A stretch of DNA of 34,495 nucleotides from Nitrospirota bacterium. GTDB taxonomy: Bacteria; Nitrospirota; Thermodesulfovibrionia; Thermodesulfovibrionales; UBA1546. A program made the translations under genes and the position numbers. Numbering within the stretch: the stretch's first letter is position 1; each line of letters opens with the position of its first letter. Location of the stretch: NCBI GenBank assembly GCA_016208875.1, contig JACQXD010000089.1, positions 1 through 34,495 of the forward strand. The letters run 5' to 3'. Positions 10,024-33,789 of the stretch are shown one piece after another. Below the pieces are notes generated by a model. That model searched no databases. It had not been told where the DNA came from and was given only the letters and a program-made list of their open reading frames with translations.

Positions 10024-10079
10024 CAGTCAGTCAGTTAGTCAGTCAGTCAGTCAGTCAGTCAGTCAGTCAGTCAGTCAGT
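10024..10079 (+). repeat. (CAGT)14 tetranucleotide microsatellite, one unit imperfect (TAGT)
   Basis: Read directly from sequence. Confidence 0.97.
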
Positions 10080-12086: not shown

Positions 12087-14486
12087 TCACCTTAGAATTC
12101 TATGAAGATTATTTCTCGAGCTTTCATCTTCCGGGTTAATGCGTAAAGCAGTGCGATATTGCATTACAGCCATATCAGGTAATCCTTTTTGTTCATAACC
12201 CAAACCAAGATTATTATAAGCCTCAGCATAATCGGGTTTTAATTTAATAGCAATCTGGAATTGTTTTATAGACATATCAATCCATCCCTTATCCATATAG
12301 GCACTGCCAAGATTATTGCGGGCATCTACATATTTAGGGTTTAGATTTATTGCAATTTTATATTCCTGTATTGCCGCATCCAGTAGTCCCTGAGCATAAT
12401 AAATATTACCAAGATTATTATGAGCCTCCGGATAGTCGGGTTCGAACATAATGGCGGTTTGAAACTCGTTCGATGCCTTATCGAGCAACCCCTTTCCCCA
12501 ATATGCAATCCCGAGATTGTTATGGGCTTTCGGGTAATACGGTTTTAAACGGATAGCAATTTCCAAATGTTTAATCGCCTCATCGGTTAATCTCTGAGCA
12601 GTATAAACAATACCAAGATTGTAATGTGTTTCCGGATTATCCGGTCTTAACCTTAATGCAATCTCTAAATATTCCATTGCCCTGTTAATTAAACCTTTAT
12701 TGTTATAAATAATACCGAGACTGTTATAGGCATCAACATAATTTGGTCTTAGCCTTAATACGGTACCTAATTGTTCTATCGCCTTATCGGTTAAGCCCTT
12801 TTTATTGTAGAAGACTCCAAGATTATTGTGTCCCCCCGGTTTATTAGGACTCTTTTTTACCACGTCTTCCCAGAGACTTCTTTCACTCTGCCATATAGTA
12901 TTTCTCCGATAAGTTGTAATTGGAAAAAAAATTATTAGAGCGACAGAGCAATAGAGCGACAGAGCGGCAGGAAGAAAAGAAAAACTACTGCTCTGTTTTG
13001 CCGTACTGTCGTTCTGTTGAACTGTCGCACTGTCAAGCCGTTGCAAAACATAAAATAACGCAGTGCTAAAGGCTATGATTAACCCTATGGATGGTAGATA
13101 CATCCTGTGCTCAAAAATAATCTCGATATCAAAAAAATATTTACCCATATCTTCGGACGTAACCAGAAAAAAAGGTGAGATGGGCATAATGCTCGATTCG
13201 ACGGATAATGTTATAAAGAACCAGAAGATTCCGAAGGCGATAAGCCGTGACACGTGACGCGTAATGCGTGACACCCCCCTATATCCCCCCTTGATAAGGG
13301 GGGAATTAAAGGGGGGTATCGTTGCCCGTGAGCGATAAAACAAATATATCCCAAGCCCGAATACAGAAAACAAAAAAAGGAATGATAAAACTATCTGAGA
13401 TTCAAAGAACGAACTGTACACCGGATAATCATAATCGAGGTTCTGGTTTATCGGAAAAAACAATAATCTTATATATGTGACTATTACCCTAAGCTGCGTA
13501 AGTAGATAATCCTGAACCGATACCTGTGCTCCCTTAGACACCTCATTTGCATGACTTATTAAGTTTAGTATTGAACCATTTACATTAATGAGCGAAAAAG
13601 GTATAAACAGCATTGTAAGCAAAAGCGGGCTTAAATATAAAATCCTTCTCTTAATTTTTCCCTCAAAGAACATGAATTCATAAAGGGCAATTACAACAGG
13701 AAGTGTAAATGCAATTTCCTTTGTTTTCATAGCAAGAACGGCGGAAAGGAGAGAGATTAAATAGAGCGACAGTCCGGCAGAGCGACAGTGCGGCAATCTC
13801 CATGCTATTTTTTCTTTACTGTCGTTCTGTCGTTCTATCGTACTAAGGAGCCTCCATTTTATATACATCACCAATGACAGCAAATAAAAAAAAGTTGCGA
13901 GGGAAGTAACCCTTTGCCAAGTAAACGTAACGGCCTGAGTCTGAATCGGATGGCTTACGAAAAGTAATGCAGAAAATAATGCAATAGAAGTTGAGAAGTT
14001 TAGAGGTTGGGAAGTTGAAAAATTCTTATCTTCCCATCTTCTTATCTTCTCATCTTCCGTATTATCCTGATAGCTGACTGCTGATAGCTGACTGCTAAAG
14101 TATGGTATCCTGAGCGTCAGCGTTACAAACCAATAAACAAGTATTGCATTAAGAATATGTATTGCAAGATTGAAAATGTGATAACCTCTAACATCGAGGC
14201 CATGTATTCTATAATTCAGAGCAAAGGTAAGATAGCCGATGTATCTCAGTTTGAATGTTTCGTATCCTGCAAGACCGTTATTTGATGTGTTAAACATCCT
14301 TGCCTTTGAAGGCTGAATAAAAAAGCTCAAGGTTTTAACTATAGGGTTTTCAGCAATAAAAGACTTATCATCAAACAGAAACGGTACATTAAAGGTATTG
14401 GAGTAGGCAAGAAGGCCGATAATGGCTATGAGGAATAGATGAGAGATTGGGTTACGGAATAAGTTATTCATTGGTACTTTCCCCAT
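12087..14486 (-). CDS. TMTC-like multi-TM membrane protein with C-terminal TPR array
   Basis: LAYSNTFNVPFLFDDKSFI, multiple TM helices, then about 8 TPRs (NNLGxxYxxKGLxDxAIxxF). Confidence 0.85.
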   Translation of the reverse strand: MGKVPMNNLFRNPISHLFLIAIIGLLAYSNTFNVPFLFDDKSFIAENPIVKTLSFFIQPSKARMFNTSNNGLAGYETFKLRYIGYLTFALNYRIHGLDVRGYHIFNLAIHILNAILVYWFVTLTLRIPYFSSQLSAVSYQDNTEDEKIRRWEDKNFSTSQPLNFSTSIALFSALLFVSHPIQTQAVTFTWQRVTSLATFFYLLSLVMYIKWRLLSTIERQNDSKEKIAWRLPHCRSAGLSLYLISLLSAVLAMKTKEIAFTLPVVIALYEFMFFEGKIKRRILYLSPLLLTMLFIPFSLINVNGSILNLISHANEVSKGAQVSVQDYLLTQLRVIVTYIRLLFFPINQNLDYDYPVYSSFFESQIVLSFLFLFSVFGLGIYLFYRSRATIPPFNSPLIKGGYRGVSRITRHVSRLIAFGIFWFFITLSVESSIMPISPFFLVTSEDMGKYFFDIEIIFEHRMYLPSIGLIIAFSTALFYVLQRLDSATVQQNDSTAKQSSSFSFLPAALSLYCSVALIIFFPITTYRRNTIWQSERSLWEDVVKKSPNKPGGHNNLGVFYNKKGLTDKAIEQLGTVLRLRPNYVDAYNSLGIIYNNKGLINRAMEYLEIALRLRPDNPETHYNLGIVYTAQRLTDEAIKHLEIAIRLKPYYPKAHNNLGIAYWGKGLLDKASNEFQTAIMFEPDYPEAHNNLGNIYYAQGLLDAAIQEYKIAINLNPKYVDARNNLGSAYMDKGWIDMSIKQFQIAIKLKPDYAEAYNNLGLGYEQKGLPDMAVMQYRTALRINPEDESSRNNLHRILR
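12937..13037. repeat. Octamer-period inverted repeat inside CDS (AGAGCGAC arm / CTGTCGTT arm)
   Basis: AGAGCGAC AGAGCAAT AGAGCGAC AGAGCGGC at 12937-12968; CTGTCGTT CTGTTGAA CTGTCGCA CTGTCAAG to 13037. Confidence 0.85.
13246..13318. repeat. Heptamer array (CGTGACA x4) abutting a CCCCCCTTGATAAGGGGGG palindromic element inside CDS
   Basis: CGTGACA CGTGACG CGTAATG CGTGACA at 13246-13273, then palindrome. Confidence 0.8.
13763..13840. repeat. Second octamer-period inverted repeat inside CDS
   Basis: AGAGCGAC AGTCCGGC AGAGCGAC AGTGCGGC at 13763-13794; TACTGTCG TTCTGTCG TTCTATCG at 13817-13840. Confidence 0.85.
13987..14095. repeat. Third octamer-period inverted repeat plus heptamer array TGATAGC/TGACTGC x4 inside CDS
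   Basis: GAAGTTGA GAAGTTTA GAGGTTGG GAAGTTGA (13987-14018); TTCTTATC TTCCCATC TTCTTATC TTCTCATC (14023-14054); TGATAGC TGACTGC TGATAGC TGACTGC (14068-14095). Confidence 0.85.
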
Positions 14487-20583: not shown

Positions 20584-20984
20584 GTAGAATGAAGAAGTCA
20601 TTGACAAGATATATATCATGGTATTTAATGGTCGCGATGTTTATAATCGGGATTGCACCAAGGGCCGATGCAGGTCTTGTGCCTTCGGAATTGATGATCG
20701 TATCGCAGATAGATAGGACTGCTGACTTTGAAAAGATTCAGAAAGTTCTTGAGATGAAGATGGTCGGCGATAGACTGGAGAAATTCGGCCTCACAAAAGA
20801 TGAGATACAAAAGAAATTGACCACCCTGAGCGATCAGCAGATACATGGGTTAGCCCTCCGGATCGACGATCTCAAGGTTGGAAAAGATGATGTGGTCGGC
20901 GCAGTAGTCGTTATTCTTGTGGTAGCCATACTTGTTGTTTTGCTGCTTCAGCTTTCCGGCCGCAGGGTCATAGTTACAAGATAA
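20580..20984 (+). CDS. PA2779-like small membrane protein
   Basis: Signal/TM N-term, LxxFGLTKDEIQKKLTTLSDQQIHGLALRIDDL, C-terminal TM; next gene is a C39 peptidase. Confidence 0.65.
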   Translation: MSRMKKSLTRYISWYLMVAMFIIGIAPRADAGLVPSELMIVSQIDRTADFEKIQKVLEMKMVGDRLEKFGLTKDEIQKKLTTLSDQQIHGLALRIDDLKVGKDDVVGAVVVILVVAILVVLLLQLSGRRVIVTR

Positions 20985-20985
20985 A

Positions 20986-21543
20986 ATGGGAAATAAGAAA
21001 TTGGAAGTAAGAAGTGGAAAGTTAAAATTTCACTTCTTACTTCTTACTTTTTACTTCTTATTTGCCTGCGCTGCTACCGGTAATATTCAGGAATCGAAAA
21101 AGCACATCATTGAGAATGTCCCTTTTTATCCGCAGGAAACGGATCGGTGCGGTCCTGCATCCCTTGCAGGTGTAATGAATTACCTGAATATCGATGTAAC
21201 GGCCGGTGAGGTCTCGGAGGAGATATACAGCGAATCTGCGAGAGGCACTCTGGATGTCGATATGGTTGTTTATCCGCAGAAAAAGGGGTTGATCGCCGGG
21301 CAATATTCCGGCGGCATGGAGGATTTGAAAAACAATATAGATTCGGGATTTCCTCTGATAGTCCTTGTTGATTATGGATTCTCGATATTGCAGTCAAATC
21401 ATTTTATGGTTGTCATCGGATATAATGAACACGGCGTGATAGTAAATTCCGGAAGGGATAAGGCAAAGTTTATACCCGAGAAGGACTTCATAAAGTCGTG
21501 GAAGAGAACGAAGTTCTGGACGCTGCTTATAAAAAGAAAGTGA
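20986..21543 (+). CDS. C39-family (PA2778-like) cysteine peptidase lipoprotein
   Basis: VPFYPQETDRCGPASLAGVMNYL, HFMVVIGYNEHGVIVNSGRDK; lipobox LFAC. Confidence 0.8.
   Translation: MGNKKLEVRSGKLKFHFLLLTFYFLFACAATGNIQESKKHIIENVPFYPQETDRCGPASLAGVMNYLNIDVTAGEVSEEIYSESARGTLDVDMVVYPQKKGLIAGQYSGGMEDLKNNIDSGFPLIVLVDYGFSILQSNHFMVVIGYNEHGVIVNSGRDKAKFIPEKDFIKSWKRTKFWTLLIKRK
20991..21063. repeat. Heptamer-period inverted repeat (CTTCTTA) encoding the signal peptide
   Basis: CTTCTTA CTTCTTA CTTTTTA CTTCTTA at 21033-21060; reverse-complementary arm AAATAAGAAATTGGAAGTAAGAAGTGGAAAG at 20991-21021. Confidence 0.9.
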
Positions 21544-21629
21544 ATAGTAAACAGTATTTAGTGAACAGTTTAAAGAAAAAGGCACTGTATTTTTTTATCT
21601 ATTCACTATTCACTATTCACTATTCACTG
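21540..21629. repeat. Heptamer-period inverted repeat (GTGAATA / TATTCAC)
   Basis: Left GTGAATA GTAAACA GTATTTA GTGAACA; right ctattcactattcactattcactattcac. Confidence 0.9.
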
Positions 21630-23475: not shown

Positions 23476-24219
23476 ATGCAAAAAAGCAATAAGGCAATTT
23501 TGAAAGATATCAAGGCTGTTCTTGAATTCTATCAAGCACTTGGATTTGAGAGGCTGCCGCTTAAAACGATACAAGATACAGGATACAAGATACAGGATAC
23601 AAAATCATGCACCATGAATCATGCATCGTGCATCGTGCATCGTGCATCGCCGCTCAATTCCGGGCAAAAGGAAACCGCTTTGAAAGAACTGCGTGATGAG
23701 ATCGGTGATTGTCAGAGGTGTAAGCTCTCGAAGGGTAGAAAAAACCTTGTTTTCGGAGAAGGAAGCGTTGATGCAGAGATTATGTTCATAGGCGAGGGTC
23801 CTGGAGAGGAAGAAGATATTCAAGGAAGGCCGTTTGTCGGCAAGGCGGGGCAACTACTTACGAGTCTGATAACAAAGATGGGCTTTAAGAGGGAGGATGT
23901 TTATATAGGCAATATAGTCAAGTGCAGGCCTTCGTTTAACCGCGACCCCGAAGATGATGAAATAAATGCCTGCCTGCCGTTTATCGAAAAACAAGTTGAG
24001 ATAATATCTCCAAAGGTTATAGTTTCCCTCGGCCGGATATCCACCCAGACCTTGATAGGCATGAAGACTCCAATAAGCAAAATAAGGGGACACTTCCATA
24101 CATTTAATGATATCCCCCTGATGCCGACATTCCATCCTGCCTATCTACTTAGGAATCCCAAGGATAAATGGCTTGTCTGGGAAGATGCACAGAAGGTTTT
24201 AGAACGACTGAATAAATAG
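23476..24219 (+). CDS. Type 4/5 uracil-DNA glycosylase (Fe-S)
   Basis: GDCQRCKLSKGRKNLVFGEG, FIGEGPGEEEDIQGRPFVGKAGQLL, NIVKCRPSFNRDPEDDEINAC, PTFHPAYLLRNP. Confidence 0.95.
   Translation: MQKSNKAILKDIKAVLEFYQALGFERLPLKTIQDTGYKIQDTKSCTMNHASCIVHRASPLNSGQKETALKELRDEIGDCQRCKLSKGRKNLVFGEGSVDAEIMFIGEGPGEEEDIQGRPFVGKAGQLLTSLITKMGFKREDVYIGNIVKCRPSFNRDPEDDEINACLPFIEKQVEIISPKVIVSLGRISTQTLIGMKTPISKIRGHFHTFNDIPLMPTFHPAYLLRNPKDKWLVWEDAQKVLERLNK
23568..23648. repeat. Heptamer-period inverted repeat inside UDG (GATACAA/G x5; ATGCATC/GTGCATC x5)
   Basis: Left 23568-23602, right 23614-23648, five units each. Confidence 0.9.
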
Positions 24220-26821: not shown

Positions 26822-26839
26822 AATCCTCCTCTCGGTCAT

Positions 26840-26905
26840 GATACAGGATACATGATACATGATAAAAACATGCATCGTGCATCATATATCGTGCATCGTG
26901 TATCA
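26840..26905. repeat. Heptamer-period inverted repeat between remA and yicC
   Basis: GATACAG GATACAT GATACAT GATAAAA; TGCATCG TGCATCA TATATCG TGCATCG TGTATCA. Confidence 0.9.
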
Positions 26906-31593: not shown

Positions 31594-33789
31594 TCATTTT
31601 GTCTTCTCCAAAAGCTCCATCACCTCTTTCCTCTCAGGCGAGTCGGATGGAAGAAGGCTCAGTGCCTTATTGAAATGCCTTCTTGCCTCTTTGAGATCAC
31701 CCTTTGCAAGCGTGGCCTTTCCCATGCCGGTATAGGATAGAGCAAGATTAGGGGAAAGCTTTGCCATAACAGAAAAATGCTTATAGGCTGCTTCCGGATT
31801 ACCGCCTTCAAGGAATATCATTGCAACAGCATAGCGTATGTTACCATTCAGGGGATCCGTGATAATTGCCTTATTAAGACTCTCTATCCCCTTTTGGTTT
31901 TCTCCCAAATATAAAAAACTCTTTGCAAGCAATAAGTAATCTTCTCCGTTTTGCGGTATCCCTTTTGTTGCAAGATAAGAATATTCCTCTGCCTTATCTT
32001 TTAAGTCAAGACGATAATAACATTCTGCAATCAAACCAAGAGCCGCCGGAGATTGCGGCCTTATTTTTAAAACTTCCCTGTATTCATTTATTGCCTTGTT
32101 ATAATCTTTTTTGTCCTTATATATGCTGCCCAGATTATAATGATAGATTTCAAATAGACTCTTATCGTTTTTTATTTTTCTTGAATCAGCTATTGACAGG
32201 AGAATTGATTCTGCATTGTTCATATCTTTTTTAAAGAAATAGGCAGTTGCCAAATTGATATAAGTTTCCGTCTGTTTACTCCCTTTTTTAATAGCTGTTT
32301 TACATATCTCGATCGCCTTATCCATTTGCTGTCTTTCCACATATGATGCACAAAGATTTGTATAAGGTCTGATTTTTTCCGGAGATTTTTGGATAGCGTC
32401 TTTCCATAGGGTAACCGGATCTTTATAGACTTCATTCCTCATATGCGCAAGGACTCCTAAAGAGATAACAACACAAGCAATAGCGAATATCCCGATTCTC
32501 TTATGTCTTAAAAATAGGCCGAGCAGCAGTTCACCTATAAAAAGTGAAAAACCGATCGAAGCGGTATAAACCCACCTCTCCGCCATGTAATCTTCCAATC
32601 TGATTGTTAGAAAGGGAATGAGATTGATAAAGAACCACAGGATTGAAAAAGACAAAATCCTATTCCTATTTTTTAAGAAAATTGCAGTCAGTAAGAGACC
32701 CAAAATAATCACAAATGGGACTATAACCGATAGGGCAAAAGAGGTTGATACCTTTACAGTGTGGTCTATATTTAGACCAAAAGGCAGGATTAAGAGCTTG
32801 AGATATTCAATAAAGACCTTTAATTCCGTAAAGATATGAGTCAGCCACGGCCTATCTGACATTGCTGGTCTTGTAATATATCCTGAATAATAGAAAAAAC
32901 CTGCTGCGATTATTCCCCAGAAAGGCAGGTGATATTTTATCCTTGCCCTAAAGTTCTCGTTCTTATCGGATATAAAATAAAGGTCGAAAAACAAAATCAA
33001 TATCGGGGTCACTATAGCCGATTCTTTAGTTGACAGGCCGAGGATAAAGAAGATTATACTTAATGGATAAAAAAGCAGGTTGAATTTTTGCGAAGTTCCC
33101 CTGAAAAAACACAACATCGAAGCCAGCATAAAAAATGTAGATAATATTGACGAACGGCTTGAGATGTATGTAACGCTTTCGGTGTTGATGGGATGGAGCA
33201 AGAAAAGGGACGCGGCGAGGATGGCTGCGGCTGACTTGTCATTGATCCCTAAATACCCCTCACCCTTGCCCTCTCCCGCAAGGGGAGAGGGAATATTGGG
33301 AGTTCCTCCCTTTGTTTCCCCTCCCTCAATGGCAGACTCCTTCCTTATTTCCCCTCCCTCAATGGCAGACTCCTTCCTTATTTCCCCTCCCTCAATGGCG
33401 GACTCCTTCCTTATTTCCCCTCCATTGAGGGGAGGGGATTGAGGGGAGGGTGGATACACATACTTCGCCAGCAACAAATAAAACAAAAACGCCGTTGATA
33501 TGTGAATAAAGAGATTTACAATATGGTATCCAAAAGTGTCCAGGCCATTTATTAAATAATTCAGATAAAACGTAAAAAGGAGAAATGCCCTGCCTGTAAT
33601 TATCCTCGAATAACTCTCGGTTACCCAATTAAAAAATAGCGGAAATGATTTTATTGATATATTTTCTCTGAGAAACGACAGGTCATCATAGTGAAAGGGG
33701 ACGGTAAAAGAATTAAAATAGGCAATTAACCCTATTAATGTGAGGAAGATAAAGACTGTCCTTTTACGGATTTTAATGTGCTGTCTCAT
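31594..33789 (-). CDS. TMTC-like multi-TM membrane protein with C-terminal TPRs
   Basis: LIAYFNSFTVPFHYDDLSFLRENISIKSF, TYISSRSSILSTFFMLASM, TPR array. Confidence 0.85.
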   Translation of the reverse strand: MRQHIKIRKRTVFIFLTLIGLIAYFNSFTVPFHYDDLSFLRENISIKSFPLFFNWVTESYSRIITGRAFLLFTFYLNYLINGLDTFGYHIVNLFIHISTAFLFYLLLAKYVYPPSPQSPPLNGGEIRKESAIEGGEIRKESAIEGGEIRKESAIEGGETKGGTPNIPSPLAGEGKGEGYLGINDKSAAAILAASLFLLHPINTESVTYISSRSSILSTFFMLASMLCFFRGTSQKFNLLFYPLSIIFFILGLSTKESAIVTPILILFFDLYFISDKNENFRARIKYHLPFWGIIAAGFFYYSGYITRPAMSDRPWLTHIFTELKVFIEYLKLLILPFGLNIDHTVKVSTSFALSVIVPFVIILGLLLTAIFLKNRNRILSFSILWFFINLIPFLTIRLEDYMAERWVYTASIGFSLFIGELLLGLFLRHKRIGIFAIACVVISLGVLAHMRNEVYKDPVTLWKDAIQKSPEKIRPYTNLCASYVERQQMDKAIEICKTAIKKGSKQTETYINLATAYFFKKDMNNAESILLSIADSRKIKNDKSLFEIYHYNLGSIYKDKKDYNKAINEYREVLKIRPQSPAALGLIAECYYRLDLKDKAEEYSYLATKGIPQNGEDYLLLAKSFLYLGENQKGIESLNKAIITDPLNGNIRYAVAMIFLEGGNPEAAYKHFSVMAKLSPNLALSYTGMGKATLAKGDLKEARRHFNKALSLLPSDSPERKEVMELLEKTK
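33318..33416. repeat. Three tandem 33-bp units inside CDS (protein EIRKESAIEGG x3)
   Basis: cccctccctcaatggcagactccttccttattt x3, one substitution in the third. Confidence 0.95.

Follow-up and report, generated by a model that had tools for sequence, protein, structure and literature searches.

Four loops of one membrane protein gene in an uncultured Nitrospirota genome (A to D; Table 1) are filled with repetitive DNA, and we interpret these segments as copies of small hairpin-forming dispersed repeats that have been invading the genome, are tolerated in protein loops, have spread among paralogous genes and are drifting in sequence, a reading to which we assign a probability of roughly 0.8. 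The gene lies within the window, the whole stretch of 34,495 nucleotides analyzed here, and encodes a protein of 799 aa. It is not special, representing instead the extreme case, with four inserts, of a genome-wide invasion that includes essential genes. The source is a MAG (G000; 2.93 Mb in 248 contigs) in which open reading frames were called mechanically, and translation of the inserts is assumed.

Table 1. Location of the host gene, its four insertions and two further insertions in the window.
Feature	Position	Strand	Description
Host gene, 799-aa membrane protein of predicted GT-C fold with C-terminal TPRs	12087..14486	-	Belongs to a genomic family of about 27 paralogs
Insertion A	13985..14097	-	TM2-TM3 loop, aa ~130-168; heptamers (14067-14096) plus LNFSTS octamer hairpin (13987-14054), ~120-nt unit, z -5.1
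Insertion B	13760..13845	-	TM4-TM5 loop, aa ~214-243; GAGCGACA octamer hairpin, z -3.0
Insertion C	13243..13325	-	TM9-TM10 loop, aa ~388-415; heptamer arm (13246-13274) plus GC-rich palindromic core (13271-13318), z -5.1
Insertion D	12935..13040	-	TM11-TM12 loop, aa ~483-517; GAGCGACA octamer hairpin of ~100 nt, z -4.8
Heptamer-arm hairpin without GC core	23568..23649	+	In frame near the N-terminus, before the catalytic domain, of a family-4 uracil-DNA glycosylase gene (23476-24219)
Independent insertion at loop A in another GT-C/TPR-like gene (31594-33789)	33315..33450	-	SPPLNGGE core-like segment plus 33-nt unit x3.3, in frame, 98% matches

All of the repeats named in a preliminary description of this DNA exist, close to where it had placed them, and they exceed chance expectation by both folding and period counts. 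Octamer-period inverted arrays were found at 12937-13037, 13763-13840 and 13987-14054, along with the GC palindrome of loop C and two heptamer arrays, of which that in loop C is weak (72% matches) and that in loop A consists of two identical 14-mers. Single-strand folding against dinucleotide shuffles gave z = -4.8, -3.0 and -3.0 for the three octamer elements and -5.1 for the loop C block. Counting these repeats as six independent insertions was rejected, as adjoining arrays merge into four blocks: each heptamer array adjoins its neighboring element and, in other copies, travels with it. The arrangement of a heptamer arm beside the GC core, as in insertion C, also recurs elsewhere in the genome. 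The arrays of insertions D and B (at 12937 and 13763), formerly taken for separate families, both carry the octamer GAGCGACA and form one sequence family. A search of the gene against Rfam returned nothing above the gathering threshold and no intron match; a structured RNA was discarded as a candidate, the palindrome giving just sub-threshold miRNA matches.

The protein that hosts these insertions was modeled with AlphaFold2 both as a whole and as the membrane domain alone (pLDDT 85 and 80, respectively), the latter because Foldseek with the whole protein matched the TPRs only. The models are confident outside the inserts, and their low-confidence stretches are the inserts and a few others, such as residues 435-455. 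The best structural matches of the membrane domain (VIA-align; Z 8.7-19.1) were OST catalytic subunits, PMT, AglB/PglB, ArnT and others; the top 45 rows were all GT-C-type proteins, aligned over 293-378 residues, and the next row, an unrelated protein, had a Z of 7.9. In these models, the membrane domain has a GT-C glycosyltransferase fold. No Pfam or NCBIfam model matched the membrane domain at E <= 0.1. Among 42 sequences, D39 in the first extracytoplasmic loop is invariant and D40 almost so, and the insert segments contain none of the invariant residues. With the D39 loop outside, the GT-C layout would make loops A, B, B2, C and D cytoplasmic. The protein resembles GT-C enzymes (OST Stt3, PglB, PMT, ArnT, AftD) in its fold, with Z up to 19.1, and in its acidic first external loop (D39), and it resembles TMTC proteins in layout, a membrane domain followed by C-terminal TPRs; it differs from both in its repeat-filled cytoplasmic loops and in having no family model for the membrane domain. 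The earlier label "TMTC-like" therefore fits the architecture but not the sequence, as the membrane domain has no Pfam or NCBIfam match and its fold is of the GT-C type. On its predicted fold, the protein may be called sugar-transferase-like.

Comparison with 73 homologs from Nitrospirota, Geobacteraceae and other MAGs confirmed that segments A to D are additions and that they are located between helices. Native loops of about 27, 25, 20 and 21 aa (A, B, C and D) correspond to 53, 43, 41 and 42 aa in this gene, and among the homologs loop A typically measures 27-32 aa and loop B 25-29 aa. The membrane domain (residues 28-529) spans 502 aa against a homolog median of 415, and 67 of the 87 extra residues fall in A to D; further extra residues are found in a non-repeat external segment at 435-455 (17 residues) and in the first external loop (8 residues). 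The SD of length is 10.9 aa at loop A, 8.6 at B, 6.5 at B2 (266-284), 8.2 at C and 4.7 at D, whereas between the loops it is 0.0 for TM3-TM4, 251-265 and 516-529, 0.1 for 421-473 and 2.6 for 285-379. The region of the first external loop (28-121) is also variable (SD 6.3), and it is repeat-free in this gene. Relatives from another family of the order, among them a one-contig genome (G028), have native loops only and no repeats, and in unrelated lineages, too, the homologs carry short native loops at these places rather than equivalent residues. It is hardly credible that the segments are native, selected protein loops that are repetitive by chance: some repeat families do recur at the same loops in relatives from the taxonomic family, but most homologs are short, the inserts lack codon-position bias, their model confidence is low, and elements of the same kind occupy unrelated genes. 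The external insertion of 17 aa at 13122-13184 (residues 435-455) contains no repeats, is modeled with low confidence and occurs in several paralogs (L067, L068, L071); unlike A to D, it is a native variant.

The same kinds of repeats extend far beyond this gene. A survey of periods, covering a 326-kb sample of the genome and complemented by targeted searches, detected strict arrays of period 7 (n = 17), period 8 (n = 5) and period 14 (n = 6); periods 4-6 and 9-13 gave 0-1, and shuffled sequence gave 0. Looser arrays lie within the open reading frames of KdtA, P-type ATPase, PurL, PurC, UbiX, AsnB, GH3 and DUF1015 proteins. The GC-rich core of about 47 nt, ACACCCCCCTnnnTCCCCCCTTnnTAAGGGGGGAATTAAAGGGGGGT, is dispersed through the genome in about 40 copies, and of the 41 copies that were read, 22 are located in long open frames, mostly in two frames on opposite strands. 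The hairpin arms are inverted repeats of period 7 or 8, the core being present in some hairpins and absent from others, and elements of 68-141 nt fold with z-scores of -3 to -8.8, the last value belonging to the L183 element, in which heptamer arms pair around a GC core. Where a filled and an empty site were compared, a heptamer hairpin was seen to carry the core at its apex, and the junction GATAAAG[AG]CA|ACACCCC was seen again in several unrelated genes; therefore, the composite units probably move together.

Several conserved proteins are interrupted in this way, and NCBIfam matches show an interruption at the insert. The insert in Tgt measures 24 aa by comparison with solved structures, the score of the protein still being above the NCBIfam cut-off, and in-frame inserts likewise occur in FolC, CheB, TatD, PurC, UbiX and P-type ATPases. 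In ValRS (L192:11908-14769, minus strand), a 12-aa core-like insert lies in the editing domain and is lacking in 20 relatives; the linker near residues 610-660 holds further repeat-like material and is variable in relatives, being filled with repeats in several genera. The preliminary description had explained the crowding of repeats in the 799-aa gene by either a tolerant target or a preference for inter-helix loops. Tolerance is supported by the data, as the inserts survive between helices and avoid conserved residues. A preference is not supported, because the same element families occur in frame in soluble housekeeping enzymes, so that the pattern reflects what survives selection and not targeting.

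Other repeats in the window are of related or different kinds. More heptamer and 14-mer arrays were observed at or near gene starts and ends (20984-21060, 21599-21628 and 26837-26904). The array of 33-nt units in the second GT-C/TPR-like gene is probably a recent expansion. An intergenic (CAGT)14 microsatellite (10024-10079, 96% matches), with a NosD/FIMAH beta-helix gene downstream of it, may undergo phase variation.

The 799-aa protein has about 27 matches in its own genome. At least nine repeat families fill the same loops across these paralogs, including octamers (LNFSTS, RQNDS), heptamers (IHD, QLSA, RNSEFG, SRITRH, YQSFKDSD), two GC cores and a REP-like repeat, VRQAHHD; elsewhere in the taxonomic family, other genomes have different repeats in these loops. 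Insertion D has 12 other near-full copies, every one in paralogs at the identical site. The block of insertion A recurs five times at 86-92% identity, four of these copies being confirmed in paralogs at the same loop and the remaining one (C217) lying outside that check, whereas insertion B has a single further full copy (C196 = L055, 93%). Compared with the paralogs, coding flanks are mostly 61-82% identical and same-family inserts at the same loop mostly 79-93%. Resolved by codon position, insertion D diverges by.20/.15/.13 and its flanks by.26/.14/.53, and A is similar; selection on the insert codons was therefore discarded, as codon-position bias is absent from their divergence. Since the inserts evolve without codon constraint and yet differ by 0.13 at third positions in D, compared with 0.53 in the flanks, they must be younger than the paralogs. 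In G043, the paralogs L085 and L088 differ at loop A by a segment of about 38 aa that reads as a different REP-like repeat, SARNDRQGEARND...ARSVSDEAI, and represents a further coding repeat family at this loop.

How the inserts came to be shared is suggested by the mosaic structure of the paralogs. Insertion D differs by only 2% between L063 and L077, against 27% and 38% in its two flanks, and in close copies the raised identity of the flanks stops within about 30 nt. The flanks are mosaic, the nearest neighbor differing segment by segment, and the divergences of adjacent segments show weak or no correlation, also where the two are not separated by an insert (F2a vs F2b, rho -0.06). A role of the inserts as special recombination breakpoints between modules was discarded on this ground, insert-free segment pairs being equally uncoupled; the flanks share little signal that could be set beside the insert tree. 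As the paralogs are mosaic throughout, short gene conversion among them is the simplest route, and the sequences suggest that the inserts were probably copied between paralogs in short conversion tracts. The initial view of several independent insertions is thus not upheld: the copies of A and D in paralogs are younger than the flanking DNA and most likely result from copying between paralogs.

The edges of loop D are sharp for ordinary gene conversion, and the full loop D element occurs only in paralogs, with no donor seen outside the gene family and no target-site duplication or mobilizer in evidence, which leaves some room for repeated targeted insertion. Under that explanation, each family would be a site-specific mobile element that recognizes the gene sequence and inserts repeatedly at one loop, as would suit the shared position and nearly identical edges of all 13 loop D copies, the short reach of the raised flank identity and the restriction of the full copies to this family. 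We consider it unlikely, because one loop hosts different families, the GC core family sits in unrelated genes, the flanks are mosaic everywhere, as gene conversion predicts, and neither an integrase nor a consensus target came to light.

The preliminary description also held that all insertions in the 799-aa gene keep its reading frame open. This is true of that gene, but about nine of its paralogs are broken, mostly at these loops: loops A, B, B2 and D, about 21% of the length, account for 6-7 of the 10 breaks (P about 0.001-0.009). Survivorship accounts for the open frame here, and some of the breaks in paralogs may be assembly errors. The concentration of breaks in loops, together with the mosaic paralogs and with periods of 7 and 8 that are not multiples of three, so that a change of one unit shifts the frame, could also indicate that the repeats are kept for a function, namely recombination or slippage at these sites by which the approximately 27 paralogs would be switched or shuffled. 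Such contingency is very unlikely, given that neighboring segments free of inserts are equally uncoupled, that degenerate units disfavor slippage, that the same elements occur in single-copy housekeeping genes and that no within-strain variation was seen in the MAG data.

Contigs end within the paralogs L065, L067, L069, L070, L074 and L076-L079, which makes the copy number and some of the breaks uncertain. With at least nine paralogs at contig ends in an assembly of 248 contigs, assembly errors may account for part of the mosaicism and some frame breaks, and in principle the inserts themselves could be an artefact of metagenome assembly in which paralogs were chimerically joined at repeats. 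That the inserts arose in this manner is highly improbable, since they differ from one another by 2-20%, are carried by single-copy genes and are of the same kind as those in relatives with contigs of 80-160 kb, even if some breaks or mosaics could still be artefactual.

Invasion by dispersed hairpins followed by copying among paralogs would account for these observations as follows. The elements would consist of inverted arms of degenerate 7- or 8-nt units, sometimes placed around a GC-rich palindromic core of about 47 nt, and would enter the genome at many places, with most coding insertions being lost. Those that survive here lie in inter-helix loops without conserved residues, loops that would be cytoplasmic and face away from the active site, and selection would have spared them there. 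Short gene-conversion tracts would then, most likely, carry the inserts to the same loops of other members of the family of about 27 genes. Resident inserts would drift without codon-level constraint, those of the wrong length breaking the frame, and would have no evident protein function.

The distribution of the core suggests a lineage-restricted and uneven history. The core pattern occurs 39 times in the genome studied, 43 times in G012 and 0-14 times in the other genomes of the taxonomic family (reversed control, 0), so that 12 of the 16 genomes of this family contain it; elsewhere in the sample of the order, only two copies were found, in one genome. Members of genus g2 differ widely, from 0 copies to 43, G012 having 43 and G006, G008, G010 and G014 having 0-1, which suggests bursts. 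Carriage by phages was considered and set aside, as viral contigs yielded no match to the exact core pattern. The genome has five matches to the Y1 transposase (PF01797), and in the family the number of PF01797 copies correlates with that of core copies (rho 0.76, n = 16, phylogeny ignored); Y1 genes also occur where the core is absent. By inspection of 41 aligned core copies, the GTAG/CGTC tag is not conserved at either edge. A REP-type Y1 transposase is a candidate for moving the elements between loci, the link being correlative.

Known elements offer several comparisons. Rickettsia palindromic elements (RPE), like other bacterial MITEs fused in frame, are hairpins of roughly 100-150 nt that lie in frame in conserved protein genes, are apparently tolerated and are free of stops (reviewed in PMC2229807). 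The elements described here are likewise hairpins, with sizes of 68-141 nt that include shorter ones than the RPE range of about 105-146 nt, in frame in conserved genes and missing from orthologs (ValRS, Tgt), but they differ in their Nitrospirota host, in the tandem 7- or 8-nt units of their arms, in the presence of several core and arm families per genome, in reaching four per gene and in being copied among paralogs. RPE are Rickettsia-specific, while the core here is confined to its own taxonomic family and one other genome of the order. In behavior, the elements are like RPE, from which they are set apart by lineage and arm structure. A stem of degenerate 7-nt repeats and their complements, with variable unit number and replacement of repeat classes, is known from P6b of the Nostoc trnL intron (PMC4476775). 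The likeness lies in degenerate heptamer units, period 7 being the commonest here, and in complementary arms within one stem, as in the L183 element; trnL P6b is an RNA within a group I intron, whereas the present stems lie in protein-coding frames, include 8-nt versions and may have an apical GC core. Cyanobacterial STRR and small dispersed repeats are a further comparison to the heptamer stems. REP sequences associated with RAYT, a Y1 transposase, are, in the outline given in PMC3733652, palindromes tagged with GTAG/CGTC. Set against that outline, the shared traits are GC-rich dispersed palindromes and PF01797 genes in the genome, and the differences are the missing tag at the core edges and the often intragenic location. 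A search of the open-access literature found no paper on such elements in Nitrospirota.

In-frame palindromic insertions are best known from Rickettsia, and here they are dense in uncultured environmental Nitrospirota with genomes of 2-3 Mb. The large paralog family provides filled and empty sites in one genome, so that the age, spread and frame effects of the insertions are directly measurable. These repeats may, at somewhat less than even odds, constitute an undescribed and still-mobile class of composite coding hairpins, with an optional apical GC core, that supplies in-frame loops at scale in free-living Nitrospirota, essential enzymes included. For annotation, the warning is that in many Nitrospirota proteins odd loops of low complexity are repeat DNA and not conserved function.
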